From NCBI GenBank assembly GCA_005240145.1, contig SBAS01000058.1:1-50919 (forward strand): a stretch of 50,919 nucleotides of DNA, read 5' to 3'. Below the pieces are notes generated by a model. That model worked only from the letters and a program-made list of their open reading frames with translations, was not told the DNA's origin and ran no database searches. A program made the position numbers and the translations under genes. Shown here in pieces: positions 5,351-21,332 of this stretch. Numbering within the stretch: position 1 is the first letter of the stretch; each line of letters opens with the position of its first letter. The DNA is from Nitrosomonadales bacterium (GTDB lineage: Bacteria; Pseudomonadota; Gammaproteobacteria; Burkholderiales; SG8-39).

Positions 5351-5424
5351 GTCGGTTCTCCCCCGGTTGTTTCATGCATGGTAATGCAGGCGCGCTATCC
5401 TTCGCCGTCAAAGGAGAGAATGCC

Positions 5425-6216
5425 ATGGGGCAATACAGCACCAGCGAACGCGACGGCCACCTGCTGGTCGTCACCATCAACCGGCCGGAGGTTTACAACG
5501 CCTGCCATCCGATGGCCAACGAAGAGATCGCCGCGGAATTCGACCGCTTCGCCGCCGACCCGGAGCTCTGGGTGGCGATCATCACCGGCGCGGGCGACAA
5601 GGCGTTTTGCACCGGCAACGACCTCAAGTACCACGCCGAGCTGCGCGCGCGCACCGGCGAGCGCCCGCAGCATCCACCGAAGGGATTCGCCGGACTGACC
5701 GCGCGCTACGACCTGGACAAGCCGGTGATCGCAGCGGTGAATGGCGTAGCGATGGGCGGCGGCTTCGAGATCGCGCTGGCCTGCGACCTCATCATCGCGT
5801 CCGACCAGGCGGTGTTCGCGCTGCCCGAGCCGCGCGTGGGGCTGGCCGCCGGCGCCGGCGGCATGCAGCGCCTGCCGCGCACCGTTCCGCTCAAGCAGGC
5901 GATGGGCATGATGCTCACCGGCCGGCGCGTCGGCGCCGAGGAAGGCATGCAGCTTGGCTTCGTCACCGCCGTCGTGCCGCACGCAAAGCTGATGATTGAG
6001 GCGCGCCGCTGGGCCGGCCTGATCCTGGAATGCTCGCCGATGAGCGTGCGCGCGACCAAGCAGGTGGTGATGCGCTCCATGGACGCGCCCTCGCTGGAGG
6101 CGGCAATGAAGAACATGGACTACCCCGCCTACGCTGCCATGGCCCGCGGCGAAGATGCCATCGAAGGACCCAAGGCGTTCGCCGAGAAGCGCAAGCCCGC
6201 CTGGAAAGGCCGCTAA
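5425..6216 (+). CDS. Enoyl-CoA hydratase/isomerase (crotonase) family protein
   Basis: This 263-residue crotonase-fold protein hydrates or isomerises acyl-CoA intermediates in the cytosol. The start is the ATG at 5425, preceded by AAGGAG at 5411-5416; the longer in-frame extension overlaps the divergent deacetylase start. The oxyanion-hole segments are present: FCTGNDLKYHAEL around residue 60-70 and NGVAMGGGFEIALACDLIIA around residue 108-127. They are followed by LPEPRVGLAAGAGGMQRLPR, which includes the usual catalytic-glutamate region. The C-terminus AFAEKRKPAWKGR is typical of the family. The exact substrate cannot be told. It converges on the NHL gene, their stops overlapping by 4 nt. Confidence 0.93.
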   Translation: MGQYSTSERDGHLLVVTINRPEVYNACHPMANEEIAAEFDRFAADPELWVAIITGAGDKAFCTGNDLKYHAELRARTGERPQHPPKGFAGLTARYDLDKPVIAAVNGVAMGGGFEIALACDLIIASDQAVFALPEPRVGLAAGAGGMQRLPRTVPLKQAMGMMLTGRRVGAEEGMQLGFVTAVVPHAKLMIEARRWAGLILECSPMSVRATKQVVMRSMDAPSLEAAMKNMDYPAYAAMARGEDAIEGPKAFAEKRKPAWKGR

Positions 6217-7184
6217 GCGACCTTCTCCAGTTTCTGCAGCGAGCGCATGCGCCAGGGAATCTTGTTCTCGGGAAAGAGGCGCGGGTACTCGGTGTAGCTG
6301 ACCTCGCCGACGTAGATGTCGCCGCGCGAATCCACCGCGAGGCCATGCGGGGCGATGAATTTGCCCGTTTCTAGACCCGGACCCGCCTCGCCGCCCAGGC
6401 GCGCGATGGTCTTGCCTTTCGCGTCGACGATGGACAGGCGCGGGCCGAGGTTCGGGTGCTCCCGGTTCACGTTCATGCCCGGCCCGAGCTCACCGATGAG
6501 GAAACGCAGCGGCGTGCCGGCGTGCGCGCGGCAGCAGTACAGTCCGCAGGGCCGGTGCATGTTGACCCATTGCGTTTCGTACTTGCCGTTGCCGTCGAAC
6601 ACCTGCACGCGATGGTTTTCGCGGTCGGCGACGTAGACCCAGCCCTCGGCGTCGGTGACGATGTTGTGCACGACATTGAACTGGCCCTCATCGGTGCCCG
6701 GTTCGCCCCAGGACAGCAGCCGCTTGCCGTCAGGCGAATACTTGTGGACCTTGGCATTGCCGTAACCGTCGCTGACGTAGATCTCGCCCTTGGGCGAAAG
6801 CGCGGTGTGGGTGCAGCGATGGAATGGCTCGCCGCTCATGTACGGCGCAGGCTTTCCGGGTACGCCCAGTTCCAGCAGCACCTTGCCGTCGGTGGTGCAC
6901 TTGCGCACCACGTGGCCCGCATCGTCGGTGAGGTAGAGGATGTCGTTGGCGTCGATGTGCAGGCCGTGTGCGCGCGGATAGCTGCCCTCGCCCCAGGACT
7001 TGAGGAAATTGCCCTCGCGGTCGAACACGATCATCGGGTGCTCGCCGCGGTTGAAGACGTAGACGCGGTCCTTGCTGTCGCAGGCAACCGCCGCCGCGTC
7101 CTTGAACTCCCAGCCCTCGGGCAGCTTGGCCCAGTTTTCCACCACGCGGTAGCGGTACCCGCCGCTTCCCAAAATGACAGACAT
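6213..7184 (-). CDS. NHL-repeat six-bladed beta-propeller protein
   Basis: This protein of about 323 residues contains repeated NHL blades, for example SYPRAHGLHIDANDILYLTD, FNVVHNIVTDAEGWVYVAD followed by HRVQVF, and FIAPHGLAVDSRGDIYVGE. Such propellers resemble peptidyl-alpha-hydroxyglycine lyases and other propeller lyases or hydrolases. Many bacterial members next to catabolic genes have no assigned reaction. No signal peptide is seen, so it is probably cytosolic. The start at 7184 (MSVILG) is chosen because an AAAGGA ribosome-binding site precedes it; an ATG 15 nt further upstream is possible. It is divergent from the class II aldolase gene. Function is unknown beyond the fold. Confidence 0.82.
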   Translation of the reverse strand: MSVILGSGGYRYRVVENWAKLPEGWEFKDAAAVACDSKDRVYVFNRGEHPMIVFDREGNFLKSWGEGSYPRAHGLHIDANDILYLTDDAGHVVRKCTTDGKVLLELGVPGKPAPYMSGEPFHRCTHTALSPKGEIYVSDGYGNAKVHKYSPDGKRLLSWGEPGTDEGQFNVVHNIVTDAEGWVYVADRENHRVQVFDGNGKYETQWVNMHRPCGLYCCRAHAGTPLRFLIGELGPGMNVNREHPNLGPRLSIVDAKGKTIARLGGEAGPGLETGKFIAPHGLAVDSRGDIYVGEVSYTEYPRLFPENKIPWRMRSLQKLEKVA

Positions 7185-7306
7185 CGGATTTCCTTTCACG
7201 GTTTCACCGGGCCGGCGCGAACGCCGGAAAACTCCGGGATTTGGCGCGGCGGCCCATGGGGGCCGTAGAATAGCCGAACACCTACCGCGAAGGACAGGAG
7301 AACCGC

Positions 7307-8095
7307 ATGAGAATCGTCAATGAGGCGGCATCGACTCGATCCCGGGAGGCCCGCGCCGACAGCGCCGAATGGCGCATGCGCGTCGACCTTGCGGCCGCGC
7401 ACCGGATCGCCTTCTTCCAGGGCCTGAGCGAGGGGATCTTCAACCACCTCACCTGCTCGGTGCCGGGCAAGCCCGACCGCTACCTGCAGATCCCCTTCGG
7501 CCTGCACTGGTCCGAGATCACCGCGAGCTGCTTCCTGGAGGTCGGCCACGACGGCAAGGTGCTCAAGGGCGAAGGCGAACGCGAGCTCTCGGGCTATTGC
7601 ATCCATGCGCCGATCCATCGCCTGATTCGCGATGCGGTCTGCGTCATGCACACCCACATGCCGTTCGCCTCCGCCCTGGCACGCCTGGAGGACCCGAAAA
7701 TCCAGCCCATCGGCCAGACCGAGGTCGGCCTGATGAAGGACGTGGTCTACGACGATCACTACACCGGCCCGGCGTTCGAATGCGAAGAAGGCGAGCGGCT
7801 CGCCGGCCTGCTCGGCGGGAAGACGGTGATGATCATGGCCAATCACGGCGTGCTCACCGTCGGCAAATCCGTCGCCGAAGCCTACGACAGCCTCTACTAC
7901 CTCGAGCGCGTCGCGCAGGTGCAGCTCTACGCGATGTGGACCGGGCAGAGGCTCAAGCCCCTGCCGCAGGACGTGGTCGACAAGACCATGGCCACGATCG
8001 GCGGGCCCTCGTATGGCAAGAAGCCGCACTGGGAGCACCACTTTGAGGCGCTCAAGCGCATGCTCGACCGGCGCGAGCCGGATTACAAGGACTAG
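7307..8095 (+). CDS. Class II aldolase/adducin family protein
   Basis: This 262-residue protein belongs to the zinc-dependent class II aldolase/adducin family (fuculose-phosphate aldolase-like), which cleaves or decarboxylates hydroxy-carbonyl substrates. The zinc ligands are visible: MHTHMPF (His115 and His117) and MANHGVLT (His180). EGIFNHLTCSVPG around residues 42-54 is the substrate-loop motif. A good ribosome-binding site (AGGACAGGAG) precedes the ATG, and TAGAAT at 7266-7271 is a plausible -10 box. It lacks sugar-phosphate specificity markers that I can recognise. It is closer in appearance to the short 'class II aldolase/adducin' proteins of catabolic clusters. Its 3' end overlaps the convergent deacetylase by 4 nt. 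Confidence 0.9.
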   Translation: MRIVNEAASTRSREARADSAEWRMRVDLAAAHRIAFFQGLSEGIFNHLTCSVPGKPDRYLQIPFGLHWSEITASCFLEVGHDGKVLKGEGERELSGYCIHAPIHRLIRDAVCVMHTHMPFASALARLEDPKIQPIGQTEVGLMKDVVYDDHYTGPAFECEEGERLAGLLGGKTVMIMANHGVLTVGKSVAEAYDSLYYLERVAQVQLYAMWTGQRLKPLPQDVVDKTMATIGGPSYGKKPHWEHHFEALKRMLDRREPDYKD

Positions 8096-8973
8096 GCGGG
8101 CGCTTCCTCGCGGTACCAGTTGGCGATTTCTTCGCCAACCATGAAGACGGTGTCGCTGCGCGCCAGCAGCGTATCCAGGATCTCGCGGAAAAAGCCGATG
8201 CGGTGCGGCACGCCTGTCAAATGCGGGTGCACGGGCAGCGTGAGGATCCTCGGCTGGCCGGTGCGCGCGATCTCGCGCTCGAACGTCTGCAGCGTCTGCG
8301 CGACCCGCAGCGGCATCTCGCTCGAGGAGTGCTTCTCGATCGCGTAGACCACGCTGTCGTTCAGCTCCAGGCTGTAGGGCAGCGAGAGCATCGGGCCATG
8401 CTTCGTTTCCATCCACGCCGGCAAGTCGTCGACGACCCACTGGTACACGTATTCGATCCCCGCCTCCTTCAGCAGGTCCGGGGTATCGAACGTTTCCGAC
8501 CAGCCCGGGCTCATCCAGCCGCGCGGCCGCTTGCCGGTAAAGGCCTCGAGCGCGGAGAGCGCGCCGTTGATCAGGCCGCGCTCGTCGCTTTCGGTGCCGA
8601 GCGAGCGCTGGTGAATGCCGTGGCCGACGAACTCCCAGCCCGCCTCGCGCACCGCGCGCGCGAGGTCCGGATAGATTTCCAGGACGCTGGCGTTGATGCT
8701 CGCGCTCGCCGGCAGCTTCCGCTCGCCCAGTGCCTGCAGCAGGCGCGGCATGCCGCAGCGGTTGCCGTATTCCGACCAGCTGAAGTTCGGGATGTCGGGG
8801 ATGTGCGAGCGGCCGTGCGGCGGCACCACGATCGTGCGCGGCATCGGCTGGTCGAACTGCCAGTACTCGATGTTTACCACCACGTGCACGATCAGCGGCT
8901 TGCCGCCGGGCGCGCGCAGCTTCGCGCGCGCGCTCGACATTTCGTAGGCAATGCGCGGATTGGAGCTAGGCAT
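8092..8973 (-). CDS. Polysaccharide deacetylase family protein (PuuE-related)
   Basis: This 293-residue NodB-fold protein is distantly related to the broken PuuE-like gene at 4404-5350. Shared landmarks are the N-terminal strand PLIVHVVVNIEYW, ASINASVLEIYPDLARAVREAGWEFVGHGIHQRSLG (His-bearing metal motif), GKRPRGWMSPGWSETFDTPDLLKEAGIEYVYQWVVDDLP, and LTLPVHPHLTGVPHR. These enzymes remove acyl groups or open cyclic ureides in a metal-dependent way. The pocket residues differ from chitin deacetylases, so a small-molecule amidohydrolase role is more likely. Its start overlaps the end of the PLP-enzyme gene by 8 nt, so the two are translationally coupled and probably act in one pathway. Confidence 0.88.
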   Translation of the reverse strand: MPSSNPRIAYEMSSARAKLRAPGGKPLIVHVVVNIEYWQFDQPMPRTIVVPPHGRSHIPDIPNFSWSEYGNRCGMPRLLQALGERKLPASASINASVLEIYPDLARAVREAGWEFVGHGIHQRSLGTESDERGLINGALSALEAFTGKRPRGWMSPGWSETFDTPDLLKEAGIEYVYQWVVDDLPAWMETKHGPMLSLPYSLELNDSVVYAIEKHSSSEMPLRVAQTLQTFEREIARTGQPRILTLPVHPHLTGVPHRIGFFREILDTLLARSDTVFMVGEEIANWYREEAPA

Positions 8974-10138
8974 TCAGGACCTTCCTCAGCGCCGCCGCGA
9001 GCGTGGCATCATCCTCGGGCCGCAGCGCCTGCGGATCGACGATGAGCATTCCCTGACCGGCGTAGCGCTCGGAAAGATGAACCGGCGGATTGCCGGCCTG
9101 CAGTCTGCGGCTCACGGCGGCTGGATTTCTTACTTTCAGATGGAGTTGAGGGACGCGGCCCGTCTCGCTGGCGGGAACAATCCTGCCATTCAAACCCCTG
9201 GAGATTTTTCCGAGACGCCGTTCCAGGGCCGCATTCGAAGCCTTGTCGTCCGCTGCGGCAAAGCGCTCGAGCGCAACGAGCAGCCCGACGATCTCTTCCT
9301 TGCCCACCTTGAAGCCCCGGCCGAGGCCGTGGTGCGGAATGCCTTTCATCTTCCGCAGATCGATCAAGCTTGGTGGCACCCAGGTGGCGTGCGGCACGTC
9401 CATGTCGAGCTGCTGAACGAGCGCCGAGCCGACGAGGTCGCGCCGGCCGGCGAGGATCCCCGAGGCCTGCGGGCCGCCGATCGCCTTGCCCCCGGAGAAC
9501 ACGACCAGGTCGGCGCCGAGTTGGAAGAATTTTTTCAGGTTGGACTTTGGCGGGAGCTGGGCTGCCGCATCGACGAGGACGGGAATGCCTTTCGCTCTGC
9601 AGGCTTTTACCGCAACGGGAAGATCGGAAACGTTTGCCGCATTCGCCGAAATCGCGAAGGCGGCGGTTCTCGGCGTGATTGCCGACTCGATCTCCCAGGG
9701 CTCCAGCCCGCGCACGCCCGCGCCGGTGCCGCGGTCGTTGTGGCCGATATCGACGATGCGGGCGCCCGCGGCGCGCAGCGCATGCGCATAGCCGGTGTAG
9801 TGCGTGCGCGGCAGCAGGATCTCGTTGGCAAAGCCCTCTGCCTGCGGCAGCGCGGCCATTTTCGCGATGTCCCAGCGCGTCATCGCCGCCGCTGCAGCGA
9901 GCGTGAGCGCGGCGGATGCGCCGGTGGTGACGATGCCGGCCTGCGCGCCGGTGAGCCGGGAAATCGTGCGGCTCGCCGCCTGCTGCAGTTCGCCGATGTC
10001 CACCGAGGCGCGGGCCGCCGCGGCCATCGCGGCGAGCACCTCCTCGTGCATGAGCGCGCCGCCCAGCCGGGTGAGGGTTCCGGCCGCATTGATGCGGCGT
10101 TTCACACCCAGCGTCGCGTAAAAGTGGTCCGGTTTCAT
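8966..10138 (-). CDS. SelA-like PLP-dependent aminotransferase/lyase
   Basis: This 390-residue fold-type I PLP enzyme resembles selenocysteine synthase SelA and D-glucosaminate-6-phosphate ammonia-lyase-like proteins. INAAGTLTRLGG at residues 16-27 and GELQQAASRTISRLTGAQAG at 49-68 are diagnostic of this group. Asp190 in VLVDAAAQLP contacts the cofactor, and Lys218 in FSGGKAIGGPQASG is the Schiff-base lysine. True SelA is larger and lies beside selB/selC, neither of which is here, so a beta-elimination or racemase-type reaction on a small amino compound is more likely. The start is the ATG at 10138. It is divergent from hyuB with only 23 bp between start codons and is coupled to the downstream deacetylase. 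Confidence 0.88.
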   Translation of the reverse strand: MKPDHFYATLGVKRRINAAGTLTRLGGALMHEEVLAAMAAAARASVDIGELQQAASRTISRLTGAQAGIVTTGASAALTLAAAAAMTRWDIAKMAALPQAEGFANEILLPRTHYTGYAHALRAAGARIVDIGHNDRGTGAGVRGLEPWEIESAITPRTAAFAISANAANVSDLPVAVKACRAKGIPVLVDAAAQLPPKSNLKKFFQLGADLVVFSGGKAIGGPQASGILAGRRDLVGSALVQQLDMDVPHATWVPPSLIDLRKMKGIPHHGLGRGFKVGKEEIVGLLVALERFAAADDKASNAALERRLGKISRGLNGRIVPASETGRVPQLHLKVRNPAAVSRRLQAGNPPVHLSERYAGQGMLIVDPQALRPEDDATLAAALRKVLNA

Positions 10139-10150
10139 GGGGCAGACAAA

Positions 10151-10156
10151 TATAAT
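10151..10156 (+). promoter_or_regulatory. Possible -10 box for hyuB (very short leader)
   Basis: A consensus TATAAT ends 5 nt before the hyuB ATG at 10162, inside a 23-bp divergent gap. If used, transcription would begin at or next to the start codon. There is no good -35, so this could be chance; an upstream promoter inside the divergent gene is the alternative. Confidence 0.35.
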
Positions 10157-10161
10157 AAGGC

Positions 10162-11937
10162 ATGGACCCGATCGCCTTCGAGCTGTTCAAGAATTCCATC
10201 TTCTCGATCGCCGACGAGATGGCGCTGACCGTGTTCCGCACCACCTACTCGGGCGTGCTCAAGGACAACATGGATTACTCGACCGGGTTCGCCGACGCCG
10301 AGGGCAGGCTGGTCGCGCAGGGGCTGACGCTCCCGGGGCACCTGGGCTCGGTGCCGACCGCCATGCAGTCGATCATGAAGCACTACCGTGACGACATCCG
10401 CGAGGGCGACGTGTTCATCATGAACGACCCCTTTGACGGCGGCATGCACCTGCCCGACATCTTCGTCTTCAAGCCGCTGTTCCACCGGGGCGAGCGCATC
10501 GCCTTCGCCTGCACCGTATGCCACCACAGCGACGTCGGCGGCCGTGTCGCGGGCTCGAACGCCTCGGACTCGACCGAGATCTACGCCGAGGGGCTGCGCA
10601 TCGCGCCGCTCAAGATGTACGAGGCGGGCAAGCTGAACCAGACGCTGATGACCTTCATCGAGAGGAACGTGCGCCTGCCGGTGCAGGTGTTCGGCGACCT
10701 GCGCGCCCAGCTCGCCGCCTGCCATATCGCCGAGAAGCAGTTCGCCGAACTGGTCGCGCGCCACGGCGTGAAAGAGATCAAGCATCTGATGCGCGAGACG
10801 ATCGACTACGCCGAGCGCCTGACGCGCGCTGCTCTGAAGGCGCTGCCCGACGGCCAGTGGCAGTTCGAGGACTGGATCGACGACGACGGCGTCGACTACG
10901 GCAAGCCGATCCGCCTCTTCGTCACCCTGCGCAAGAAGGGCGGCCACATGGTGGTCGACTGGACGGGCACCTCCCCGCAGGTGAAGGGCGCGATCAACAA
11001 CACGCTCTCCTTCACCAAGGCGGCGTCCTACACCGGCGTGCGCTCGGTTCTGCCCCAGGGCATTCCGAACAACGAGGGCGTGTTCCGCGCCATCGAGGTG
11101 ATCTGCCCGCCCGGTACCGTGGGCAACGGCGTGCTGCCCGCCGCGTGCGCCGCGCGTGGCCTCACGGGATTTCGCATGACCGATTGCATGTTCGGGGCGC
11201 TCGCGATGATGCTGCCCGACAAGGTGAAGGCGGCGGGCGACGGCGGCAACACCGGCGTCTCCATCGGCGGCTACGACGCGGCGCGCAAGCCCTTCATCTA
11301 TGTCGACTTCACCTGCGGCGCGTGGGGCGCGCGCCCCTGGGCCGATGGCCTGGACGGCAACTCGCACATGTTCGCCAACATGGCCTCGCACTCGATCGAG
11401 GTCACCGAGCTTGAGCAGCCGATGCAGTTCCTTGCCTACGAGTTCGTGCCCGACAAGGCGGGCGCGGGCAAGTACCGCGGCGGCGTGCCGTTCCGGCGCG
11501 ACTACCGCTTCCTCGAGGAGGAAGGCGTGCTGCAGGTGCGCTCCGACCGGCGCACGCACCGTCCCTTCGGCCTGTATGGCGGCAGCCCGGGCATGCCTTC
11601 GGAGAACTATCTCGACCCGGACCTGGAGAACCGCATCCTGCCGAGCAAATTCACCATGACCATCAAACGGGGGCAGATCTTCCGCCACGTGCTCGCCGGC
11701 GCCGGCGGCTGGGGCGACCCGCTCGAGCGCGATCCCGCGGCAGTTCTCAAGGACGTGCGCAACGAACTGCTCTCGCCCGCCAAGGCGGCAGCGGACTATG
11801 GTGTTGTCGTTTCCGGAAAAGAAGTTGATGCAAGGGCAACTGAAAGAAAGCGTACTGAAATGAGGGCCCAACGAAACTGGAACTCGGTCCCCGCAGTGCA
11901 GCGCGAGGATCCGGTCCTTCCCAGAAAAGCTGCGTAA
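10162..11937 (+). CDS. hyuB: Hydantoinase B/oxoprolinase family protein (HyuB), copy 1
   Basis: This 591-residue HyuB-type subunit normally pairs with HyuA for ATP-dependent opening of cyclic amides (5-oxoproline, N-methylhydantoin). Related subunits form acetone/acetophenone carboxylases. Landmarks are DPIAFELFKNSIFSIADEMALTVFRT at the N-terminus, GDVFIMNDPFDGGMHLPDIFV around residue 85-105, CHHSDVGGRVAGSNA around residue 120, and FHRGRGVP-like GKYRGGVPFRRDY near residue 440. The C-terminus HVLAGAGGWGDPLERDP is the normal domain end, followed by a tail of about 55 residues. The partner hyuA starts with GTG immediately after the TAA stop, so the pair is coupled. The order B-A is opposite to the second pair at 17695-21332. 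Confidence 0.93.
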   Translation: MDPIAFELFKNSIFSIADEMALTVFRTTYSGVLKDNMDYSTGFADAEGRLVAQGLTLPGHLGSVPTAMQSIMKHYRDDIREGDVFIMNDPFDGGMHLPDIFVFKPLFHRGERIAFACTVCHHSDVGGRVAGSNASDSTEIYAEGLRIAPLKMYEAGKLNQTLMTFIERNVRLPVQVFGDLRAQLAACHIAEKQFAELVARHGVKEIKHLMRETIDYAERLTRAALKALPDGQWQFEDWIDDDGVDYGKPIRLFVTLRKKGGHMVVDWTGTSPQVKGAINNTLSFTKAASYTGVRSVLPQGIPNNEGVFRAIEVICPPGTVGNGVLPAACAARGLTGFRMTDCMFGALAMMLPDKVKAAGDGGNTGVSIGGYDAARKPFIYVDFTCGAWGARPWADGLDGNSHMFANMASHSIEVTELEQPMQFLAYEFVPDKAGAGKYRGGVPFRRDYRFLEEEGVLQVRSDRRTHRPFGLYGGSPGMPSENYLDPDLENRILPSKFTMTIKRGQIFRHVLAGAGGWGDPLERDPAAVLKDVRNELLSPAKAAADYGVVVSGKEVDARATERKRTEMRAQRNWNSVPAVQREDPVLPRKAA

Positions 11938-14016
11938 GTGACCGGTTACCGAGTCGGTGTCGATGTCGGCGGCACCTTCACGGACATCGTGCTGCTCGGG
12001 TCCGACGGCACGATCCACACCAAGAAGGTCTCCTCCAGCGTCGGCAATTACGCGCAGGCGATCGTAGAGGGGCTTGCCGAGGTCATGCGCGAAACCGGGC
12101 TGGCCGGCGGCGCGCTCGAGGAGATCCGCCACGGCACGACAGTCGCCTCGAACGCGATCCTCGAGCACAAGGGCGCGCGCACCGGCCTGATCACCACCAG
12201 GGGCTTTCGCGACGTGCTCGAGATCCGCACGCTGCGCATGCCGCGCATGTACGACATCGCCTGGACCAAGCCCGTGGCGCTGGTCGAGCGCTATCTCAGG
12301 AAGACGGTGGATGAGCGCGTCAATGCCGCGGGCGCGGTCGAGCGGGCGCTCGACCAGCGTGAAGCCGAGCGGGTGGTGGACGAGCTCCTGGCAGAGAAAG
12401 TGGAAGCGATCGCGGTCTGCCTGCTGCATTCATTCTCGAATTCTTCCCATGAATTGCTGCTGAAGAAGATCGTGCAAAGGAAGGCCCCGTCCCTGCCCTG
12501 TTCCGTCTCGTGCGAAGTCCTGCCCGAAATCAAGGAGTACGAGCGCACTTCGACCACCGTCATCAATGCCTACGTGACGCCTGTCGTTGCCACCTACCTC
12601 AAGGCGCTGCGCCAGGGCCTGGACCGCGCGGGCGTCGGTGCGCGCGTGCTGCTCATGCAGTCGAACGGCGGGCTCACCACCGACGCCGCAGCCATCGAGC
12701 GGCCGATCCACGTCATCGAGTCCGGACCCGCGGGCGGCGTGGTCGGCGCGCAAGCCCTCGCGCGCGCGAAGAAACTGCCGGGGATCATCACCTTCGACAT
12801 GGGGGGCACCACCGCCAAGGCCTCGATCGTCGAGCGCGGCGAGGTGACGCGCGCGCAGGAGTACGCGGTCGGCGCCGGCATCATGGTCGGCTCGCGCCTG
12901 CTCACCGGCGCGGGCTACACGCTCAAGGTGCCGGCGATCGATCTGGCGGAAGTCGGCGCCGGCGGCGGCTCGCACGTCTGGCTCGACCCCGCGGGCGCGC
13001 TCCAGGTCGGGCCCGAGAGCGCCGGCGCCGCGCCCGGGCCGGTGTGCTACGACGCGGGCGGCGAGATCCCGACGGTCACCGACGCGAACCTCGTCCTCGG
13101 TTTTCTCAATCCTTCCTACCTGGTGGGCGGCGCTTTAAGAATCAATAGTGAAAAAGCCAGACGAATTTTCGCGGAACGAATCGCCAAACCCCTCGGCATG
13201 AGCGTAGAGCGCGCGGCGCACGGCGCGCACCTGATCGCCGCCTCGAACATGATCCGCGCGATCAAGGCGGTCTCCACCGAGCGCGGCCGCGACCCGCGCC
13301 GGTTCGCGCTGTTCGCTTTCGGTGGCAACGGCCCGGTGTTCGGCTGCGGCATGGCGGCGGCGCTCGGCATGAAGCGCGTCGTCGTGCCGCCCTCGGCGGG
13401 CCTCTTCTCCTCCTTCGGCCTGCTCTACGCCGACGTCGAGCACCACTATTCGCGCACGCTCAGGCGCCTGCTGCGCAAATCGGATCTCGGCGAGATCCGC
13501 AAAGCCTGGGACGCGCTCGCGGACCAGGCTCGCGAGCAGCTTGCCGCGGAAGGTTTTATCGGAAAGAGAGCGCGAATCCGACGCGCCGCGGCCCTGCACT
13601 ACCACGGCCAGACCTACGAGCTCACCGTGCCGCTGCCGGAGGGCCCGATCGATCTCAGGAAGCTGGAAGAGGCCTTCGGCCGCGAGCACGAGAAGACCTA
13701 CGGCCACCGCGCGGGCGAGGACGAGCCGGTCGAGCTGGTGTCGATCCAGGTGGTCGGCCAGGGCCTGCGCGAGGGGCCCAGTGTCCCGAAACGCGTGCGC
13801 CCGAGCCGCGCCGAGCCCGCGCCGCCCGCGCCTCGGAAAGCCTATTTCGGTCCGAAGCTGGGTTGGCTCAAGACGCCTGTCTTGCGCCGTTCCGATCTGT
13901 CGAAGGCGCGCAAGGGTCCTTTGATCGTCGAAGAGTACGACGCGACCTGTGTCATCCCGCCTGGGGCAATAGCCGGGCTGGATGCCGGCGGCAACATCGC
14001 TATCGAGCTCGGCTGA
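11938..14016 (+). CDS. hyuA: Hydantoinase/oxoprolinase A subunit (HyuA), copy 1
   Basis: This 692-residue ATP-binding subunit belongs to the actin/ASKHA-like hydantoinase A family. The N-terminal phosphate-binding motif RVGVDVGGTFTDIVLL is at residues 4-19. HGTTVASNAILEHKGARTGLITT follows around residues 65-87, and the second phosphate motif ITFDMGGTTAKAS lies around residue 285. SGPAGGVVGA and GAGGGSHVWLD are further family markers. It starts with GTG directly after hyuB. It ends 7 nt before the convergent TRAP permease stop. Codons around 12430-12490, 13130-13180 and 13550-13580 are unusually AT-rich (TTA, AGA, CGA) compared with the rest. Substrate could be a hydantoin, oxoproline-like lactam or a ketone; the sequence alone does not decide. 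Confidence 0.93.
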   Translation: MTGYRVGVDVGGTFTDIVLLGSDGTIHTKKVSSSVGNYAQAIVEGLAEVMRETGLAGGALEEIRHGTTVASNAILEHKGARTGLITTRGFRDVLEIRTLRMPRMYDIAWTKPVALVERYLRKTVDERVNAAGAVERALDQREAERVVDELLAEKVEAIAVCLLHSFSNSSHELLLKKIVQRKAPSLPCSVSCEVLPEIKEYERTSTTVINAYVTPVVATYLKALRQGLDRAGVGARVLLMQSNGGLTTDAAAIERPIHVIESGPAGGVVGAQALARAKKLPGIITFDMGGTTAKASIVERGEVTRAQEYAVGAGIMVGSRLLTGAGYTLKVPAIDLAEVGAGGGSHVWLDPAGALQVGPESAGAAPGPVCYDAGGEIPTVTDANLVLGFLNPSYLVGGALRINSEKARRIFAERIAKPLGMSVERAAHGAHLIAASNMIRAIKAVSTERGRDPRRFALFAFGGNGPVFGCGMAAALGMKRVVVPPSAGLFSSFGLLYADVEHHYSRTLRRLLRKSDLGEIRKAWDALADQAREQLAAEGFIGKRARIRRAAALHYHGQTYELTVPLPEGPIDLRKLEEAFGREHEKTYGHRAGEDEPVELVSIQVVGQGLREGPSVPKRVRPSRAEPAPPAPRKAYFGPKLGWLKTPVLRRSDLSKARKGPLIVEEYDATCVIPPGAIAGLDAGGNIAIELG

Positions 14017-14023
14017 GCCGCGC

Positions 14024-15310
14024 TCACTCCGACGCGACGCGCGGCAGCCAGAGCGCGAGCTGCGGCCAGTAGGAGAGGAGCGCAAGCATCAGGATCATGG
14101 TGACGACGAAGGGCGAAGAGCCGATGATGACGTCGTCGATCTTGCCGCGCTTGCGCAGGCCTTGCACCACGTAGAGATTGATGCCCACCGGCGGCGTGAT
14201 CATCGCCGTCTCCATGAGGATCACGATCAGCACGCCGAACCAGATCGGGTCGTAGCCCGCCTTCACCATGATCGGGGCGATGATCGGCACCGTGGCGACC
14301 ATCATGGAGAGCGTCTCCATGAAGCAGCCGAGGACGAGGTAGAACACGATCACCGCCAGCAGCAGCCCGGCCGGGGAGAGGCCGAGCTCCGTGATCGCGC
14401 GGTTGACCTGCGCGGTGAGGCCGATGGAGCTGATGACGAAGTTGAGGAAATACGCGGCAATCAGGATCGCCATGATCATGGCGGTGGTGCGCATCGTGCC
14501 CTCGAAGGCGTGCAGCAGCATGCGCAGGCTCAGGCTGCGGTGCCAGGCGGCGACGCCGAGGGCGGCGAGCACGCCGAGCGCGGCAGACTCGGTGGCGGTC
14601 GCAAATCCCCCGTAGATCGAACCGATCACCGCGATGAAGATGAGCAGCGGCGGAATCAGGTCGGGCAGGGCGCGGATGCGGGATTTCCAATTGGTGGTCG
14701 TGCGCCTGCCGCCGAACTCCGGCCGCACCAGGCAGATGAGAAGCACCGTCAGGCTGAACAGGCCCGCCAGCACGAGGCCCGGAATGATGCCGGCGAGATA
14801 GAGCTTGGGGATCGACGCATCGGTGAGCACCCCGTAGACGATCAGGTTGATGGAAGGCGGAATCAGGATGCCGAGCGTGCCGCCCGCGGCGATGGTGCCG
14901 AGGAACAGCCGCTCGGAGTAGCCGTGCTTCTTGATCTCGCCCATCGCCACCGTGCCGATGGTGGCGGCGGTGGCGACGCTCGAGCCGGAGGTGGCGGCGA
15001 ACATCGCGCAGGCGGCGATGTTGGAGTGCATCAGGCCCCCGGGAAGCCAGGGCACCCACAGCACGAGCGCGTTGTACATGCGTTCGGCCACTCCCGAGCG
15101 CAGCAGGATTTCGCCCAGCAGCACGAAGAACGGGATGGCGACGAGGAGGAAGTTGTTGGACGTCGCCCAGGCCATCTCGCCGATGGCGAGCGTGAGCGGC
15201 AGCTTCGAGTACAACTCGGAGAGCGCCACGCCGAGAAAGCCAAGCGCCGCGGCTACCGGCACGGCGAGCGCCAGCAGCCCGATCAGGATCGCGAGCGCGC
15301 TCCAGAGCAT
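14024..15310 (-). CDS. dctM: TRAP transporter large permease (DctM family), second system
   Basis: This 428-residue, roughly 12-helix permease is of the common DctM size. Hallmarks are AIPFFVLLGEILLRSGVAERMYNALV, SGSSVATAATIGTVAMGEI, IAAGGTLGILIPPSINLIVYG, and a C-terminal TPPVGINLYVVQGL. FATATESAALGVLAALG is the conserved ATxTE motif of the translocation core. Its ATG overlaps the dctQ stop by one base (TGATG), so translation is coupled. It lies between the two hyu pairs, converging on hyuA copy 1, which suggests that the system imports the hyu substrate. Confidence 0.95.
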   Translation of the reverse strand: MLWSALAILIGLLALAVPVAAALGFLGVALSELYSKLPLTLAIGEMAWATSNNFLLVAIPFFVLLGEILLRSGVAERMYNALVLWVPWLPGGLMHSNIAACAMFAATSGSSVATAATIGTVAMGEIKKHGYSERLFLGTIAAGGTLGILIPPSINLIVYGVLTDASIPKLYLAGIIPGLVLAGLFSLTVLLICLVRPEFGGRRTTTNWKSRIRALPDLIPPLLIFIAVIGSIYGGFATATESAALGVLAALGVAAWHRSLSLRMLLHAFEGTMRTTAMIMAILIAAYFLNFVISSIGLTAQVNRAITELGLSPAGLLLAVIVFYLVLGCFMETLSMMVATVPIIAPIMVKAGYDPIWFGVLIVILMETAMITPPVGINLYVVQGLRKRGKIDDVIIGSSPFVVTMILMLALLSYWPQLALWLPRVASE

Positions 15311-15873
15311 CAGCGTTCCTTCAGCTCCCGGATCTCGTCCTCGACCTCCTCCATCACCGAGCGCGTGCTGATGGCGCCCGCCGCCGCCGCCGCGTCGCCG
15401 CGCGCGATCTGCAGCAAGGCGTGCGCGAGCAGCGCCACGCCGATCGCGAGAAACACCGCCAGGCCGGCGAGCCAGATCGACTGCGGGATCACCGTAGGCG
15501 TGGCAAGCGCCGACTGGCTGCGCGAGGACGACACCCAGGACTGCTCGACCACGCTCCAGCCGTGGCGCGCGATGAGGCCGAAAAAGGCGAGCAACAGCGC
15601 GATGCCGGCGAAATCGAGCGCGAGGCGCAACCAGCGGGGGAAATAGCCGTAAAGCGAATCGATGCGGATGTGGGCGCGGTCGAGGAGCGCCGCGCCGAGC
15701 GACCAGGCGGTGCCCAGCGCAAGCGCGTAGCCCGCGAGTTCATCGGCCCCGCCGATTGACGCGTTGAAAAACTTGCGCAGGGTGACGTCGATGCCGATCA
15801 GTACGGCGGCGGCGAGCACCAGCGCGCCGCCGAACCAAAGGCCGAAGCGGGTTACGCTGCGCACAAGCCCCAT
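15310..15873 (-). CDS. dctQ: TRAP transporter small permease (DctQ family), second system
   Basis: This 187-residue membrane protein starts at the ATG at 15873; the longer open frame upstream runs through dctP out of frame. Four hydrophobic helices lie at about residues 12-30, 46-66, 85-105 and 131-153. DVTLRKFFNASIGGADELAGYALALGTAWSLGAALLDRAHIRID is the canonical DctQ core. The hydrophilic C-terminus (EEVEDEIRELKER) is charged and probably cytoplasmic. It lies between dctP, 20 nt upstream, and dctM, with which it overlaps by 1 nt, giving the usual P-Q-M order on the minus strand. Confidence 0.94.
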   Translation of the reverse strand: MGLVRSVTRFGLWFGGALVLAAAVLIGIDVTLRKFFNASIGGADELAGYALALGTAWSLGAALLDRAHIRIDSLYGYFPRWLRLALDFAGIALLLAFFGLIARHGWSVVEQSWVSSSRSQSALATPTVIPQSIWLAGLAVFLAIGVALLAHALLQIARGDAAAAAGAISTRSVMEEVEDEIRELKER

Positions 15874-15893
15874 CGGCGAGCCTGCGAGAGGGT

Positions 15894-16952
15894 TCAGTTC
15901 GTCGGCGCCCTCAGGCCCAGCGCCTTGCCGACGGTGTTGTTCCACTCCGCGGCGCATTCGGCGCCGCAGCGCTTCGCCCAGCCGGCAAGCACCGCGCCCT
16001 CCACCAGTTTCTTGTGCGTCTCGGCCTCGGCCGGCTTCACCGGCACGATCGTGATGCCGGCCAGCTTGCCCATGGTGCAGGGCGGCTTGCCGGTATTGCA
16101 GTTGTCGGCCTCTCCATCCGCCTTCTTGAGCGTCGCCCACATCTTGTTCTCGTACGCCTTCACTTGCTCGAGCATGAAGCCCTGCACGCGCTTGTCCAGC
16201 CGGTTCCAGCTCGTCAGGTTCACCGCCATCACGTTGATGCTCCAGCCGAGCGACATGGGGTAGAGCGATTTCGTCACCTCGGGCCAGCCCGCAGTATTGC
16301 CCGACAGACTGCCGGTGACGCCGCAGTCGACGACGCCGTTGTTCAGCGCCGGCACCACTTCGGCGAACGCCATGCTGACCGCGGTGGCGCCGACGCCGGA
16401 GAGGAAGTCGCGCATGGTGTTGTTGAACACGCGCACCTTCTTGCCCTTGAGGTCGGCGAGGCCGCCGAGCACGCCGCGGCACCAGAATACCTGCGGCGGG
16501 TTGCCGCCGAAGGCGAGTAGTTTCGCGTTCCAGTTCTTCTGCATCTGGCGGTCGATCACCGCGCGGTAGGCCTCGCAGCCGGCGCGCGCCTTGTCCGCAT
16601 CGAGGGTGATGCCGGCGAGGTCGCAGCCTTCGAAGCGCGGGTCGTCACCCGCCATCTTGGAAATATCCATGCCGGCGAAGTCCATCACGCCGAGGCGCAG
16701 GAGGCGCAGCATCGTCTTGTCATCGACGCCCATCTGGTCGAGCGGCGTGATGTCCGCGGTAATCGCCCCTTTGGACGCCTTGGGTAGGATGTCGCGCCAG
16801 AACGGCACTTCGTCGATGATCGACGCCACCGTTGGGCTGTTCAGGCCGATCACCTTGAACTGCGCCTTGGGCAGGTCCTGCGCGTAGCCGGATGAAGCGC
16901 TGGCGGAAGCAAACAGCGAAACTGCGAATGCGGCGAGCGAACGGGTTAGCAT
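15894..16952 (-). CDS. dctP: TRAP transporter substrate-binding protein (DctP), second system
   Basis: This 352-residue periplasmic receptor starts at the ATG at 16952, behind a strong GGAGGAG ribosome-binding site, with a signal peptide up to about residue 24 (SGYAQ). The core GLADLKGKKVRVFNNTMRDFLSGVGATAVSMAFAEVVPALNNGVVDCGVTG is the diagnostic DctP ligand-binding region. Several cysteine residues (for example DNCNTGKPPCTM and KRCGAECAAEW) suggest disulfides in the C-terminal lobe. It differs markedly from the first DctP at 2896-4008, so the two systems probably take different ligands. It heads the dctPQM operon and is divergent from a leftover hyuA 5' fragment. Confidence 0.93.
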   Translation of the reverse strand: MLTRSLAAFAVSLFASASASSGYAQDLPKAQFKVIGLNSPTVASIIDEVPFWRDILPKASKGAITADITPLDQMGVDDKTMLRLLRLGVMDFAGMDISKMAGDDPRFEGCDLAGITLDADKARAGCEAYRAVIDRQMQKNWNAKLLAFGGNPPQVFWCRGVLGGLADLKGKKVRVFNNTMRDFLSGVGATAVSMAFAEVVPALNNGVVDCGVTGSLSGNTAGWPEVTKSLYPMSLGWSINVMAVNLTSWNRLDKRVQGFMLEQVKAYENKMWATLKKADGEADNCNTGKPPCTMGKLAGITIVPVKPAEAETHKKLVEGAVLAGWAKRCGAECAAEWNNTVGKALGLRAPTN

Positions 16953-16977
16953 TGGTAGTCTCCTCCTGTGACCCGTA

Positions 16978-17029
16978 ATACTACCCCCGCCCGCCTCGCC
17001 GCCGACATCGGCGGCACCTGCAACGACGT
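16978..17029 (+). pseudogene. Remnant of a hyuA 5' end
   Basis: Read from the GTG at 16978, the frame encodes TTPARLAADIGGT, matching the N-terminal phosphate-binding motif of the hyuA at 17695 (LPARLAADIGGT). It then decays (CNDVQAF in place of FTDVVLE) and runs into the tail of the minus-strand gst gene. A 34-bp stretch (16986-17019) is identical to 17701-17734. This is best read as a scar left when the gst gene came between dctP and hyuA, or as a partial duplication of the hyuA start. It is far too short to be functional. Confidence 0.75.
16986..17019 (+). repeat. 34-bp direct repeat, left copy (flanks gst)
   Basis: This is identical base for base to 17701-17734, 715 bp away in the same orientation. 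The two copies bracket the gst gene, so recombination between them could delete it. Outside the repeat the sequences diverge at once on both sides. Confidence 0.85.
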
Positions 17030-17641
17030 TCAGGCCTTCGCCGAGGGCCGAGCGTCCATGCGGCCGTACCAGGCGCCCAGGCGGGCGAGGCCCGGGTCGA
17101 GCGGCTGGCCGACGCGCTTGCCGAAAGCGACGAAGCAGTAGAGCAGGATGTCGGCCAGCGTCAGCCGCTCGCCGCACAGGAAGGTCTTGCTGCCCATCTG
17201 CCCGTCCAGCCAGGCGAGCTTTTCGCGCGCGATGCGCTTGAGCCCGTCGGCCGCCTCGGGCAGCACAGTGATCCGGTCCTTGAACATCGCCAGCCCCTCG
17301 GCGTAACGGAATCCGCCGCCCATCGGCTCGACGATGTTCAGGTCCACCCGGCGCGTCCACATGCGCGTCTCGGCACGCTGCTCGGGCGTGGCGCCGATCA
17401 GGCTCGGCGGCGGGGATTTCTCTTCCAGGTATTCGCAGATCGCCGTGACCTCCGCCAGGTAGCTGCCGTCGTCCAGCTGCAGCGTCGGCAGCTGCCCGGC
17501 CGGATTGCGCGCCAGGTGCGCCTCCTTGCGGTTCTCGCCGCCGCGCAGGTCGACCGGCACCAGCTCGAGCACAATGCCCTTCTCCGCCGCGAACATGCGC
17601 ACCACGTGGGGATTGGGTCCTACCGAGTTGTACAGTTTCAT
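17030..17641 (-). CDS. Glutathione S-transferase family protein
   Basis: This 203-residue cytosolic GST begins at MKLYNSVGPNPHVVRMF, with an AAGGA site upstream of the ATG at 17641. The N-terminal thioredoxin-like domain (1-80) contains NPAGQLPTLQLDDGSYLAEVTAICEYLEE, with the cis-proline and the glutathione-binding E-(S/A)-x-A-I region in variant form (AEVTAIC). The C-terminal helical domain includes LCGERLTLADILLYCFVAFG, the N-capping/hydrophobic-staple motif. It is bracketed by the 34-bp repeat and divergent from hyuA copy 2. It may be a later insertion in the hyu/TRAP locus. Whether it serves detoxification of pathway electrophiles is unknown. Confidence 0.9.
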   Translation of the reverse strand: MKLYNSVGPNPHVVRMFAAEKGIVLELVPVDLRGGENRKEAHLARNPAGQLPTLQLDDGSYLAEVTAICEYLEEKSPPPSLIGATPEQRAETRMWTRRVDLNIVEPMGGGFRYAEGLAMFKDRITVLPEAADGLKRIAREKLAWLDGQMGSKTFLCGERLTLADILLYCFVAFGKRVGQPLDPGLARLGAWYGRMDARPSAKA

Positions 17642-17681
17642 GCGGTGTCCTTCCTGGGCAAGCATGGGCTGGGCGGTAAAG

Positions 17682-17687
17682 TATATT
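17682..17687 (+). promoter_or_regulatory. Possible -10 box for hyuA copy 2 (leaderless)
   Basis: TATATT ends 7 nt before the hyuA ATG at 17695, in a 53-bp divergent gap. No ribosome-binding site precedes that ATG. Together these suggest a leaderless or near-leaderless transcript. No convincing -35 is visible. Confidence 0.35.
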
Positions 17688-17694
17688 CGACCTC

Positions 17695-19770
17695 ATGTTA
17701 CCCGCCCGCCTCGCCGCCGACATCGGCGGCACCTTCACCGATGTCGTGCTGGAGCACGCGGGCCGCCGCCACTCGGCCAAGGTGCTCACCACGCCGCGCG
17801 CGCCCGAGGAAGGCATGCTGGAGGGCATCGGGAAAGTCCTGCAGGAAGGCGCGCTGCAGCCTGCCCAGGTCGGCGTCCTGATCCACGGCACCACGCTCGC
17901 CACCAACGCGCTGATCGAGCGCAAGGGCGCAAAGACCGCCCTGCTCACCACCGCGGGCTTTCGCGACGTGATCGAGATGGGCTACGAGAAGCGCTACGAG
18001 CACTACGACCTGGAACTGGAGCTGCCCATGCCGCTGGTGCCGCGCGAGCTGCGCTATCCGGTGGAAGAACGGATGACGGCAAAGGGCGGGATTCACAGGC
18101 CCTTGAATGAAGAATTACTCAAGAAAACCATAGAAATAATAAGAAAAGAAAAAGTTGAAGCCATCGCCGTCGGATTTCTCCATTCGTATGCAGATGATTC
18201 GCACGAACGGCGCGTCGGAGAAATGCTCGCGAAGGCGCTGCCCGGCATCCCGGTGACCCTCTCTGCCGCGGTCTGCCCGGAAATCCGCGAGTACGAGCGC
18301 TTTTCCACCGCCTGCGCCAACGCCTATGTGCAGCCGCTCATGACGAGCTACCTCGAGCGCCTCGCGGCTCAACTGCAACAGCGCGGCTTCGCCTGCCCGA
18401 CGTACCTGATGACCTCCGGCGGGGGACTCACCACGCTCGAGACCGCGCGCCGCTTTCCGGTGCGGCTGGTGGAATCGGGCCCCGCGGGCGGGGCGATCCT
18501 CTCGGCCGGCCTCGCGCGCGAAAACTCCCTCGACGAAGTACTTTCGTTCGACATGGGCGGCACCACCGCCAAAATTTGCTTCATCGGCCAGGGCCGTCCC
18601 GAGCAGTCGCGCAAGTTCGAGGTGGCGCGCATCTGGCGCAACCTGAAGGGCAGCGGCCTGCCGCTGCGCGTGCCCGTGACCGAAATGGTCGAGATCGGTG
18701 CCGGCGGCGGCTCGATCGCGCGCCTGGACCAGTTGCAGCGCATCCAGGTGGGTCCGGCGAGCGCGGGCGCTGAGCCGGGCCCGGCCTGCTACGGGCGCGG
18801 CGGCACCGAGTCCACGGTGACCGATGCCGACGTGGTGCTGGGCCTCATCGACCCGGCCGCGTTCGCCAGCGGGACTCTTCAGCTGAATTTTCGAAAAGCC
18901 GAAAACACGCTCCTCACACGCATTGGCGCCCCGCTCGGCCTCACAGCGGCCTGGGCGGCGGCGGGCGTCACCGAAATCGTCGAGGAGAACATGGCGAGCG
19001 CGGCGCGGGTGCACGCCATCGAGCGCGGCAAGACGCCCGAGCGCTGCACCATGATCGCCTTCGGCGGCGCCGCGCCGCTGCATGCGGCGCGCCTCGCAAT
19101 GAAACTCGGCGTGCGCAAAGTCCTCGTGCCGGTGGATGCGAGCGTCGGTTCGGCGGTGGGGTTCCTGCGCGCGCCGGTGGCCTTCGAGCTCGCGCGCAGC
19201 CTGCGGATGCGGGACGATTCACTTGACTTTTCACTTGTAAATCTTTTACTCGCAAAAATGCAAGGCGAAGCGAAAGCCATCGTCGCCGCCGGCGCTCTCG
19301 GGGCGAAGCTCGCGACGCGCCGCAGCGTGGAGATGCGCTACGAGGGCCAGGGGCATGAAATTTCCGTGCCCCTGCCCGACGGCAGATTGAATGCGCGGCA
19401 CGCGCGCAAGCTGCGCGCCGGGTTCGAGGCGCACTACGAACGGCAGTTCGGCCTGCGCATCGCCGACGTGCCGGTGGAATTCCTGACCTGGTCGGTCAGT
19501 GTCTCGACGGCTGCGAAGAACGCAAGAGAAAAAATCAGGTTGAGGAAGAAATCCAAAGTGACGGCAAGCGGCAAACGCAAGGTTTTCAACCAGGATTCCG
19601 GCACCAGCGTGGCCATCGCCACCTACCTGCGGGCGAGCCTCGCGCCGGGAATGCAATTCGCCGGCCCGGCCCTGGTGGTCGAGCCGCAGACCACCACGCA
19701 GGTGCCGCGCGGGTGGCATTGCAACGTCTTACCCTCAGGACATCTTTTGTTGGTTAATTCGAAATTATGA
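17695..19770 (+). CDS. hyuA: Hydantoinase/oxoprolinase A subunit (HyuA), copy 2
   Basis: This 691-residue paralogue of the HyuA at 11938 has the same landmarks: LAADIGGTFTDVVLEHAG at the start, IHGTTLATNALIERKGAKTALLTT around residue 62-85, SGPAGGAILSAGLA and SFDMGGTTAKICFIG around residue 265-300, and GAGGGSIARLD. The two proteins are clearly different in sequence, so they probably differ in substrate or form distinct subunits of one complex. It overlaps hyuB by 4 nt (ATGA). Several patches (18100-18210, 18880-18930, 19210-19270, 19520-19600) use AT-ending rare codons, and two of them lie at positions homologous to patches in copy 1. The first 34 nt after codon 2 are duplicated beside dctP. 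Confidence 0.93.
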   Translation: MLPARLAADIGGTFTDVVLEHAGRRHSAKVLTTPRAPEEGMLEGIGKVLQEGALQPAQVGVLIHGTTLATNALIERKGAKTALLTTAGFRDVIEMGYEKRYEHYDLELELPMPLVPRELRYPVEERMTAKGGIHRPLNEELLKKTIEIIRKEKVEAIAVGFLHSYADDSHERRVGEMLAKALPGIPVTLSAAVCPEIREYERFSTACANAYVQPLMTSYLERLAAQLQQRGFACPTYLMTSGGGLTTLETARRFPVRLVESGPAGGAILSAGLARENSLDEVLSFDMGGTTAKICFIGQGRPEQSRKFEVARIWRNLKGSGLPLRVPVTEMVEIGAGGGSIARLDQLQRIQVGPASAGAEPGPACYGRGGTESTVTDADVVLGLIDPAAFASGTLQLNFRKAENTLLTRIGAPLGLTAAWAAAGVTEIVEENMASAARVHAIERGKTPERCTMIAFGGAAPLHAARLAMKLGVRKVLVPVDASVGSAVGFLRAPVAFELARSLRMRDDSLDFSLVNLLLAKMQGEAKAIVAAGALGAKLATRRSVEMRYEGQGHEISVPLPDGRLNARHARKLRAGFEAHYERQFGLRIADVPVEFLTWSVSVSTAAKNAREKIRLRKKSKVTASGKRKVFNQDSGTSVAIATYLRASLAPGMQFAGPALVVEPQTTTQVPRGWHCNVLPSGHLLLVNSKL
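17701..17734 (+). repeat. 34-bp direct repeat, right copy (within hyuA)
   Basis: This is codons 3-13 of the intact hyuA plus one base, identical to 16986-17019. It covers the GGT phosphate-binding motif, so the intact gene is presumably the source copy. Confidence 0.85.
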
Positions 19771-21332
19771 ATAAAAAACTAGTGCAACAAATTCTCTGGA
19801 ACCGGCTCATCGCGGTGGTGGAGGAGCAGGCCAACGTGCTGCTCAAGACCGCCTTCGGCACCATCACGCGCGAAGCGGGCGACCTTTCCGCCGGCGTCTA
19901 CGACACCAAGGGCCGCATGCTCGCGCAGGCGGTCACCGGCACGCCGGGGCACGTCAACACCATGGCAGCCGCGGTAGCGCACTTCCTCGAGCGCTTCCCC
20001 GCCCATACGCTCAAGCCCGGCGACGTGCTGGTAACCAACGATCCGTGGCTCGGCACCGGCCACCTGTTCGATTTCGTCACCGTGACGCCGGCCTTCCTGA
20101 AGAAGAAGCTGATCGGCTTTTTCGCCTCCACCTGCCACGTCATCGACATCGGCGGGCGCGGCTTTGTCGCCGAGGCGACCTCGGTCTATGAGGAAGGCCT
20201 GTATGTCCCGCACATGAAGCTGATGGATGCGGGCAAACGCAACCCGACGCTGTTCGCAATCCTCATGGGCAACGTGCGCGAGCCGACGCAGGTGCGCGGC
20301 GACCTGCTGAGCCTCGTCTCCTGCAACGAGGTGGCGACGCGGCGCCTCGCGGCGATGCTGGAGGAATTCGGCCTCTCCGAACTCGACACCCTGGGCGAGT
20401 ACATCGTCTCCACCTCGCGCGAGTCGATGCGCGCCGCGATCCGCAAGTTGCCCTCCGGCACCTGGCGCGCGGCGATGACGCTGGACGGCTACGAATCGCC
20501 CGTCGAGCTCAAGGCCGCGCTCGCGGTGTCGGACGGCGCGATCCACGTCGATTACGCCGGCACTTCGGCCGCCTCGCGCTTCGGCATCAATTCGCCCAAG
20601 TGCTACACCGACGCCTACACCTCGTTCGGCGTCAAATGCATCGTCGCGCCCGGCATTCCGAACAACGCCGGCTCGCTCGAAACGGTCTCGGTCTCGGCGC
20701 CGGAGGATTCGATCGTCAATCCGCTGCGGCCTCGGGCCGTGACCGCACGCCACCTCATCGGCCAGATGCTGCCCGAGCTCGTCTTCGGCTGCTTCGAGGA
20801 GCCGCTCAAGGGGCAAGTGCCGGCGGAGGGCGCCGGCAGCATCTGGATCCTCGGCCTCTCGGGCGGACCGCAGGTGGAGGGCGCGAAGCCCGATGCGAGG
20901 CGCTTCAACGCCCTCTCCATCGGCATCGGCGGCATGGGCGCGCGCCCTGCCAAGCACGGCCTCTCTTCGACCGCGTTTCCGAGCGGCGTCGGCGCGATAC
21001 CCGTGGAGGTCACCGAAGCGCTCTCGCCGCTGCTGTTCCGGCGGCGCGAGCTTGCGGACGGCCCCGGCGGCGAGGGCCGGCAGCGCGGCGGCAAGGGCAC
21101 GGTGATCGAGGTCGAGAACACTGAACCCGCGCCCTTCAGCGTTGCCTGCGCCACCTTCGACCGGCGCCACAACCCGGCGCGCGGCCGCGCCGGCGGCATG
21201 GATGGACGTGTGGGCCGCGTCGGTTTGGCGAGCGGCAAGGTCCTGCCCGGGAAGGAAACCTACGTCGTCCCTGCGGGCGACTGCCTGGTGGCCGAGATGC
21301 CGGGCGGCGGCGGCTACGGCAAGAAATCCTGA
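19767..21332 (+). CDS. hyuB: Hydantoinase B/oxoprolinase family protein (HyuB), copy 2
   Basis: This 521-residue HyuB paralogue is about 70 residues shorter than copy 1. Family motifs are EEQANVLLKTAFGTITREAGDLSAGVYD near the start, GDVLVTNDPWLGTGHLFDFV around residue 90-108, FASTCHVIDIGGRGF, and GMGARPAKHGLSSTAFPSGVGAIPVEVTEALSPLLFRRRELADG. The C-terminal MPGGGGYG is the expected end. The ATG lies within the hyuA stop (ATGA), so both subunits are made together. The P450 start codon follows one base after its stop. Copy 2 is in A-B order, the mirror of copy 1. Confidence 0.92.
   Translation: MNKKLVQQILWNRLIAVVEEQANVLLKTAFGTITREAGDLSAGVYDTKGRMLAQAVTGTPGHVNTMAAAVAHFLERFPAHTLKPGDVLVTNDPWLGTGHLFDFVTVTPAFLKKKLIGFFASTCHVIDIGGRGFVAEATSVYEEGLYVPHMKLMDAGKRNPTLFAILMGNVREPTQVRGDLLSLVSCNEVATRRLAAMLEEFGLSELDTLGEYIVSTSRESMRAAIRKLPSGTWRAAMTLDGYESPVELKAALAVSDGAIHVDYAGTSAASRFGINSPKCYTDAYTSFGVKCIVAPGIPNNAGSLETVSVSAPEDSIVNPLRPRAVTARHLIGQMLPELVFGCFEEPLKGQVPAEGAGSIWILGLSGGPQVEGAKPDARRFNALSIGIGGMGARPAKHGLSSTAFPSGVGAIPVEVTEALSPLLFRRRELADGPGGEGRQRGGKGTVIEVENTEPAPFSVACATFDRRHNPARGRAGGMDGRVGRVGLASGKVLPGKETYVVPAGDCLVAEMPGGGGYGKKS

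Follow-up and report, generated by a model that had tools for sequence, protein, structure and literature searches.

A stranded start of the hydantoinase gene hyuA lies between dctP and a glutathione S-transferase-like gene (gst) in the window, the whole 50,919-bp stretch of DNA analysed here, and in all likelihood represents a fossil joint from DNA exchange, an ordinary kind of recombination scar. We favour an account, its chance a little short of even, in which a hyuA fused to the dctP leader was displaced by DNA bringing gst, the old hyuA promoter and a hyuA start, so that 44 bp of the fused gene would remain. Two non-homologous joints bound these 44 bp: the dctP leader meets hyuA at codon 3, and hyuA codon 17 meets the gst stop codon.

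The orphan fragment and the intact hyuA

The fragment occupies 16986-17029 on the + strand and corresponds to hyuA codons 3 to ~17. Its first 34 bp (16986-17019) are identical at 34/34 positions to 17701-17734, the direct repeat that the original prediction had placed there, and the likeness extends to 44 bp (16986-17029 against 17701-17744, 41/44), which bears out the reading of the left copy as a hyuA 5' end. The extension is likely real but less certain: the final 10 bases match at 7/10, and with both strands counted 0.43% of positions in the window do as well. The copies start 715 bp apart with gst (17030-17641, - strand) between them, again as predicted; the left copy ends on the base immediately before the gst stop codon (17030-17032) and the right copy runs from 17701 on. 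Since a search of the whole genome (3.24 Mb) returned the right copy at E 1.8e-12, and since the 27-base core of the repeat, present twice in the window, found 0 matches in 100 dinucleotide shuffles with up to 3 mismatches allowed, the repeat is not due to chance. A 90-base query across the scar gave a third, weak match in the same genome, on contig C37 (85% over 33 bases, E 8.6e-4), and blastn at E<=1e-5 aligned no part of the 6-kb stretch around it with the window.

The intact hyuA (17695-19770, + strand) carries the Pfam domains Hydant_A_N, Hydantoinase_A and Hydant_A_C, the first two above cut-off, as in the hydantoinase/oxoprolinase A family. The right copy begins at its codon 3, and neither its start codon, at 17695, nor its promoter region has a counterpart at the left copy. 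With a 112-base query, matches above 60 bits in the 13 genus genomes comprised 11 hyuA gene starts (10 other genomes and our own) and the orphan, which is thus the sole hyuA start outside a gene at that level; weaker matches, at least ~40 per genome, fall outside this count.

Readable hyuA 5' ends came from 11 of the 13 genus genomes (own included) and from G013 of another genus, giving 12; G003, in which the 5' end is lost at a contig end, and G007, with a match of only 50%, were left out. The spacer between gst and hyuA (17642-17694) holds AGTATATTC, which begins 23-24 bases before codon 4 in five of the 12 (our own G000, G005, G011, G012 and G013) and is absent from the remaining 7/12 upstream regions within 300 bases (195 in G006). 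Upstream likeness at E<=0.01 links only members of the motif-bearing five, with the exception of a 17-base match between G002 and G010 (E 0.01). Because the motif is common to G005, G011, G012 and G013, the 5' end at the right copy looks like the old type. AGTATATTC is a putative promoter; a consensus scan of 16850-17850 returned 0 sigma-70-like promoters. Likeness between hyuA genes by blastn begins at 17704 (G001, G004) or 17694 (G010), so that the start of the fragment, at the equivalent of 17701, nearly coincides with the limit beyond which other hyuA genes cease to resemble one another, which counts in favour of a displaced gene start.

Two further observations concern the hyuA loci of relatives. 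An apparent pair of hyuA pieces in G001 overlaps at 127/127 positions and represents one gene cut by contig ends. In G002, G004, G008 and G009 (loci L123, L129, L131 and L127) hyuA seems, by eye, to start a few bases from a stop codon or to overlap it, in a different context each time.

The dctP leader and the TRAP transporter module

To the left of the fragment lies dctP (15894-16952, - strand; Pfam DctP), encoding a TRAP solute-binding protein and forming the outer end of a module (8966-16985) of a PLP enzyme gene (-), hyuB1 (+), hyuA1 (+), dctM, dctQ and dctP (-) that recurs elsewhere in the family. The whole gene set is found at L258 (G098) and at L259 (G063, where a contig end cuts dctP), and parts of it at L122, L255, L256 and L257 (G002, G016, G109 and G103). 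The window holds two hydantoinase A/B sets, of which the left one travels with the TRAP transporter elsewhere in the family and, in two genomes, also with the PLP enzyme. At E<=1e-100, dctP occurs in 7 of 98 family genomes, own included, six of them with a readable upstream region; in an order-wide search (399 genomes, at most five candidates scored per row) our own genome stood alone at E<=1e-120 among the matches listed.

The dctP 5' leader (16953-16985), comprising the ribosome-binding side and TAATACTACC, forms the left part of what had been described as the hyuA scar. The dctP region of G002 (L122) matches the window by blastn over 15913-16986 (83% over 1078 columns), and in a pairwise alignment the common leader ends in TAATACTACCC; VTRNTT is therefore dctP leader, and the sequence is hyuA-like only from 16986. 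That the likeness to G002 stops where the hyuA-like sequence starts argues for a joint of the kind we favour. The prediction that the scar reads in frame from a GTG was right as to the frame; the GTG itself lies at 16968-16970 (+ strand) rather than at 16978, and it and the next five codons belong to the leader, not to hyuA as had been supposed. The frame from this GTG reads VTRNTTPARLAADIGGTCNDVQ... and continues for 57 codons to a stop. The in-frame position of the hyuA fragment supports a former fusion, against which it must be set that such a fit arises by luck 1 time in 3. An 8-pair stem in the fragment is not unusually stable (z -1.2; matched or exceeded in stability by 28/200 shuffles) and a search for terminator-like sites found none, so we claim no regulatory role for it.

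Inspection by eye revealed a similar leader at L140, L141 and L142, and among the six readable upstream regions it is common to G000 (own), G002, G016, G109 and G103 and missing from G098. G002 and G103 have the GTG, which G016 and G109 lack; in G103 (L142) a GTG at a like place is the apparent start, chosen by eye, of a divergent 2-hydroxyacid dehydrogenase gene. The divergent gene beside dctP varies, being Aminotran_3 in G016, Amidohydro_3 in G109 and 2-Hacid_dh in G103 and G098, a variability that speaks for the account we favour; G002 has only an 83-codon frame opposite dctP. At none of the five other readable dctP loci is the divergent gene this hyuA. The uninterrupted dctP-hyuA junction that the original prediction led one to seek in relatives was encountered at 0/5 of these dctP loci and at 0/11 of the other readable hyuA loci, for which 195 to 14981 bases of upstream DNA were covered. 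With one genome sampled per species, this result weighs against the account we favour.

The gst gene and the slot opposite hyuA

The product of gst bears six Pfam domains above the curated cut-off (PF13409, PF02798, PF13417, PF00043, PF13410 and PF14497, including GST_N_2, GST_N and GST_C), so that both N- and C-terminal GST domains are represented, as in the GST family, and it ends in RPSAKA*, like many of the homologues compared. Matches at E<=1e-60 occur in 4 of 98 family genomes, own included, or in three if the count is confined to the 41 genomes with a completeness of 90% or more; gst thus looks like an accessory gene, complete but patchily distributed. Neither gst (98 family genomes) nor the orphan repeat (13 genus genomes) was found conserved, in keeping with the original prediction. 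With a G+C content of 69.1% against 66.1% for the whole window, gst is not marked as foreign by its composition, which counts against its arrival with incoming DNA. In G011, gst and hyuA share one contig at a distance of ~14 kb.

Among gst relatives, 80 loci from named genomes were kept (match 60-68%). The 87 test-set loci (82 gst, 3.3 to 20.6 kb long with 12 under 10 kb, and 5 dctP) encoded no relatives of this hyuA/hyuB set at E<=1e-15, and dctP appeared at E<=1e-15 at the five dctP loci only. A plasmid search matched 318 records, none of which covers at least 80% of the query; in the 20 listed, the gst part or the hyuA part was matched alone.

The repeats could in principle serve to excise gst across the 34 bp, as had been suggested. 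The product of a deletion between them has an open frame of 695 codons, and loss of gst by this route would therefore keep hyuA in frame.

The slot opposite and upstream of hyuA is variable. In the window 10.5 kb separate hyuA from an NHL-repeat gene (6213-7199), and a relative of it lies upstream of hyuA at 6 of the 11 other loci, at ~0.55 kb in G010, 1.1 kb in G011, 1.5 kb in G004, 3.0 kb in G005, 3.5 kb in G001 and 6.6 kb in G012; it was not found within the upstream DNA covered at the remaining 5/11. An enoyl-CoA hydratase gene is also upstream of hyuA in G010 and G004, with a piece of it in G011. Opposite hyuA are a whole kynureninase gene in G005, a 65-codon kynureninase remnant in G011, a gamma-glutamyltransferase gene in G012 and the start of one in G013. 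The G011 remnant (L120:5054-5248), its front part joined to its end, is another deletion scar in the slot opposite hyuA. No transposase or recombinase gene adjoins the joints: dctP, gst, hyuA and nine other genes of 5278-21332 (hyuA1 left out) encode metabolic or transport proteins by Pfam. Farther along the window, 34132-37587 (- strand) encodes a 1151-residue histidine-kinase-like protein with repeated internal segments, and its DNA contains 5 copies of a 154-base unit that are 64-100% alike.

Accounts of the scar and comparison with known systems

In the account we favour, hyuA would have been fused near its codon 3 to the leader of dctP, in frame from the GTG, and this would have happened either in the present lineage or in whichever genome donated the TRAP module. 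Incoming DNA with gst, the old promoter of hyuA and a hyuA start would have arrived later, anchored on one side by homology inside hyuA and joined on the other at a non-homologous joint, where the stop codon of gst would have met about codon 17 of the old copy. Recombination of this one-sided kind (homology-facilitated illegitimate) would keep the old start as a scar and place the working hyuA to the right of gst. The two joints, the relatives of each piece, the reading frame and the common upstream motif are observed; a dctP-hyuA ancestor is predicted, and we infer the order of the steps, the anchor and any past use of the fused gene. Sliding identity along hyuA gave no clear mosaic break, a point against this account, the relatives being about equally distant.

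The chief alternative, unlikely in our judgement and the best placed of the rivals, is that gst and hyuA were already paired when the TRAP module became attached on the gst side, and that the repair polymerase filled the joint with 44 bases copied from the start of hyuA at a distance of 715 bp. A single event would suffice, and the fact that a 44-bp copy made while dctP and gst were being joined accounts for the sequence in one step is an argument against a displaced hyuA. Both edges of the fragment resemble non-homologous joints, the left one having a short overlap of CCC (by eye), and the neighbouring hyuA is the closest of the 12 genes to the fragment (41/44). However, G009 and G013 are nearly as close (40/44 each), so a local source is not demanded. 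Random filler would moreover rarely start at the very start of a gene, and because the fragment begins at the 5' boundary of hyuA, on the coding strand and in frame, we prefer the displacement of a fused hyuA. The differences between the fragment and the neighbouring hyuA comprise Phe to Cys and Thr to Asn, both found in 0/12 genes, and GAC in place of GAT, with GAC in 5/12; the left copy may thus derive from another allele and not from the hyuA now present. Over the 34-bp tract the 12 genes agree with it at 29 to 34 positions, and as the G013 gene, from another genus, also matches the left copy at 34/34, identity over this tract does not prove recent copying. An exact 34-bp repeat need not signal a recent duplication where the tract is strongly conserved.

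We consider it improbable that gst and the hyuA start were duplicated in tandem, with hyuA codon 17 joined to the gst stop, and that arrival of the TRAP module then removed the left gst and hyuA promoter. Such a duplication would produce exactly the joint seen at the right edge of the fragment, but two events are required, and the genome has 11 gst-like matches of which gst itself is the sole one on this contig. Quite improbable, too, is the proposal of the original prediction that gst was inserted between dctP and an intact hyuA while duplicating part of the hyuA start. The order of the genes and the placing of the repeats agree with it, and of the idea that gst split a dctP-hyuA pair two elements hold, namely a hyuA start left in connection with gst and the accessory nature of gst (4/98); the dctP-hyuA junction itself was not found at the 5 dctP and 11 hyuA loci. 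Plain insertion fails to explain why the upstream motif, as in G005, G011, G012 and G013, and the start codon are present at the right copy only, the left copy following the dctP leader, which is not the pattern of a target duplication. The arriving DNA must therefore also have carried the motif and the hyuA start, and with that addition the proposal becomes the displacement of a fused hyuA. An assembly artefact in this draft genome of 130 contigs is highly improbable, as sequence other than hyuA flanks the fragment on both sides, 3/44 bases differ, and the assembly would have to contain two false joins no more than 44 bp apart.

More broadly, and as a tentative and rather unlikely generalisation, the first codons of hyuA may be a recurrent exchange point, at which, between species, coding sequence from about codon 4 is kept while all that lies upstream (promoter, first codons and neighbour) is swapped; the scar would be a caught intermediate, and the dctP leader a second such point, modules being shuffled at gene starts. 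The locus offers a small, legible case of accessory genes and transport modules reaching conserved genes at joints where no mobile element was seen, and shows how a gene may have its front end exchanged with its frame kept.

Divergent gene pairs are arranged around shared promoters, and dctP and, in some genomes, hyuA may resemble them, since they adjoin close divergent genes that vary between genomes. Among the titles and abstract beginnings surveyed, none described such a scar. Replication slippage deletes between short repeats, mostly below 30 bp (excerpted text of PMC2884548). Here, too, two direct repeats flank a gene, gst, that they could delete; in contrast, slippage would be a possible future of the locus rather than its cause, and the repeats are 34 bp long with starts 715 bp apart. 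Homology-facilitated illegitimate recombination, with one homologous end and one non-homologous, is named in passages and references of PMC2884548. It differs from the present case in that our event is deduced from the layout, sliding identity having located no hyuA crossover. The likeness is that a homologous hyuA side combined with a non-homologous joint would give the layout seen here, with a remnant of the resident gene start.
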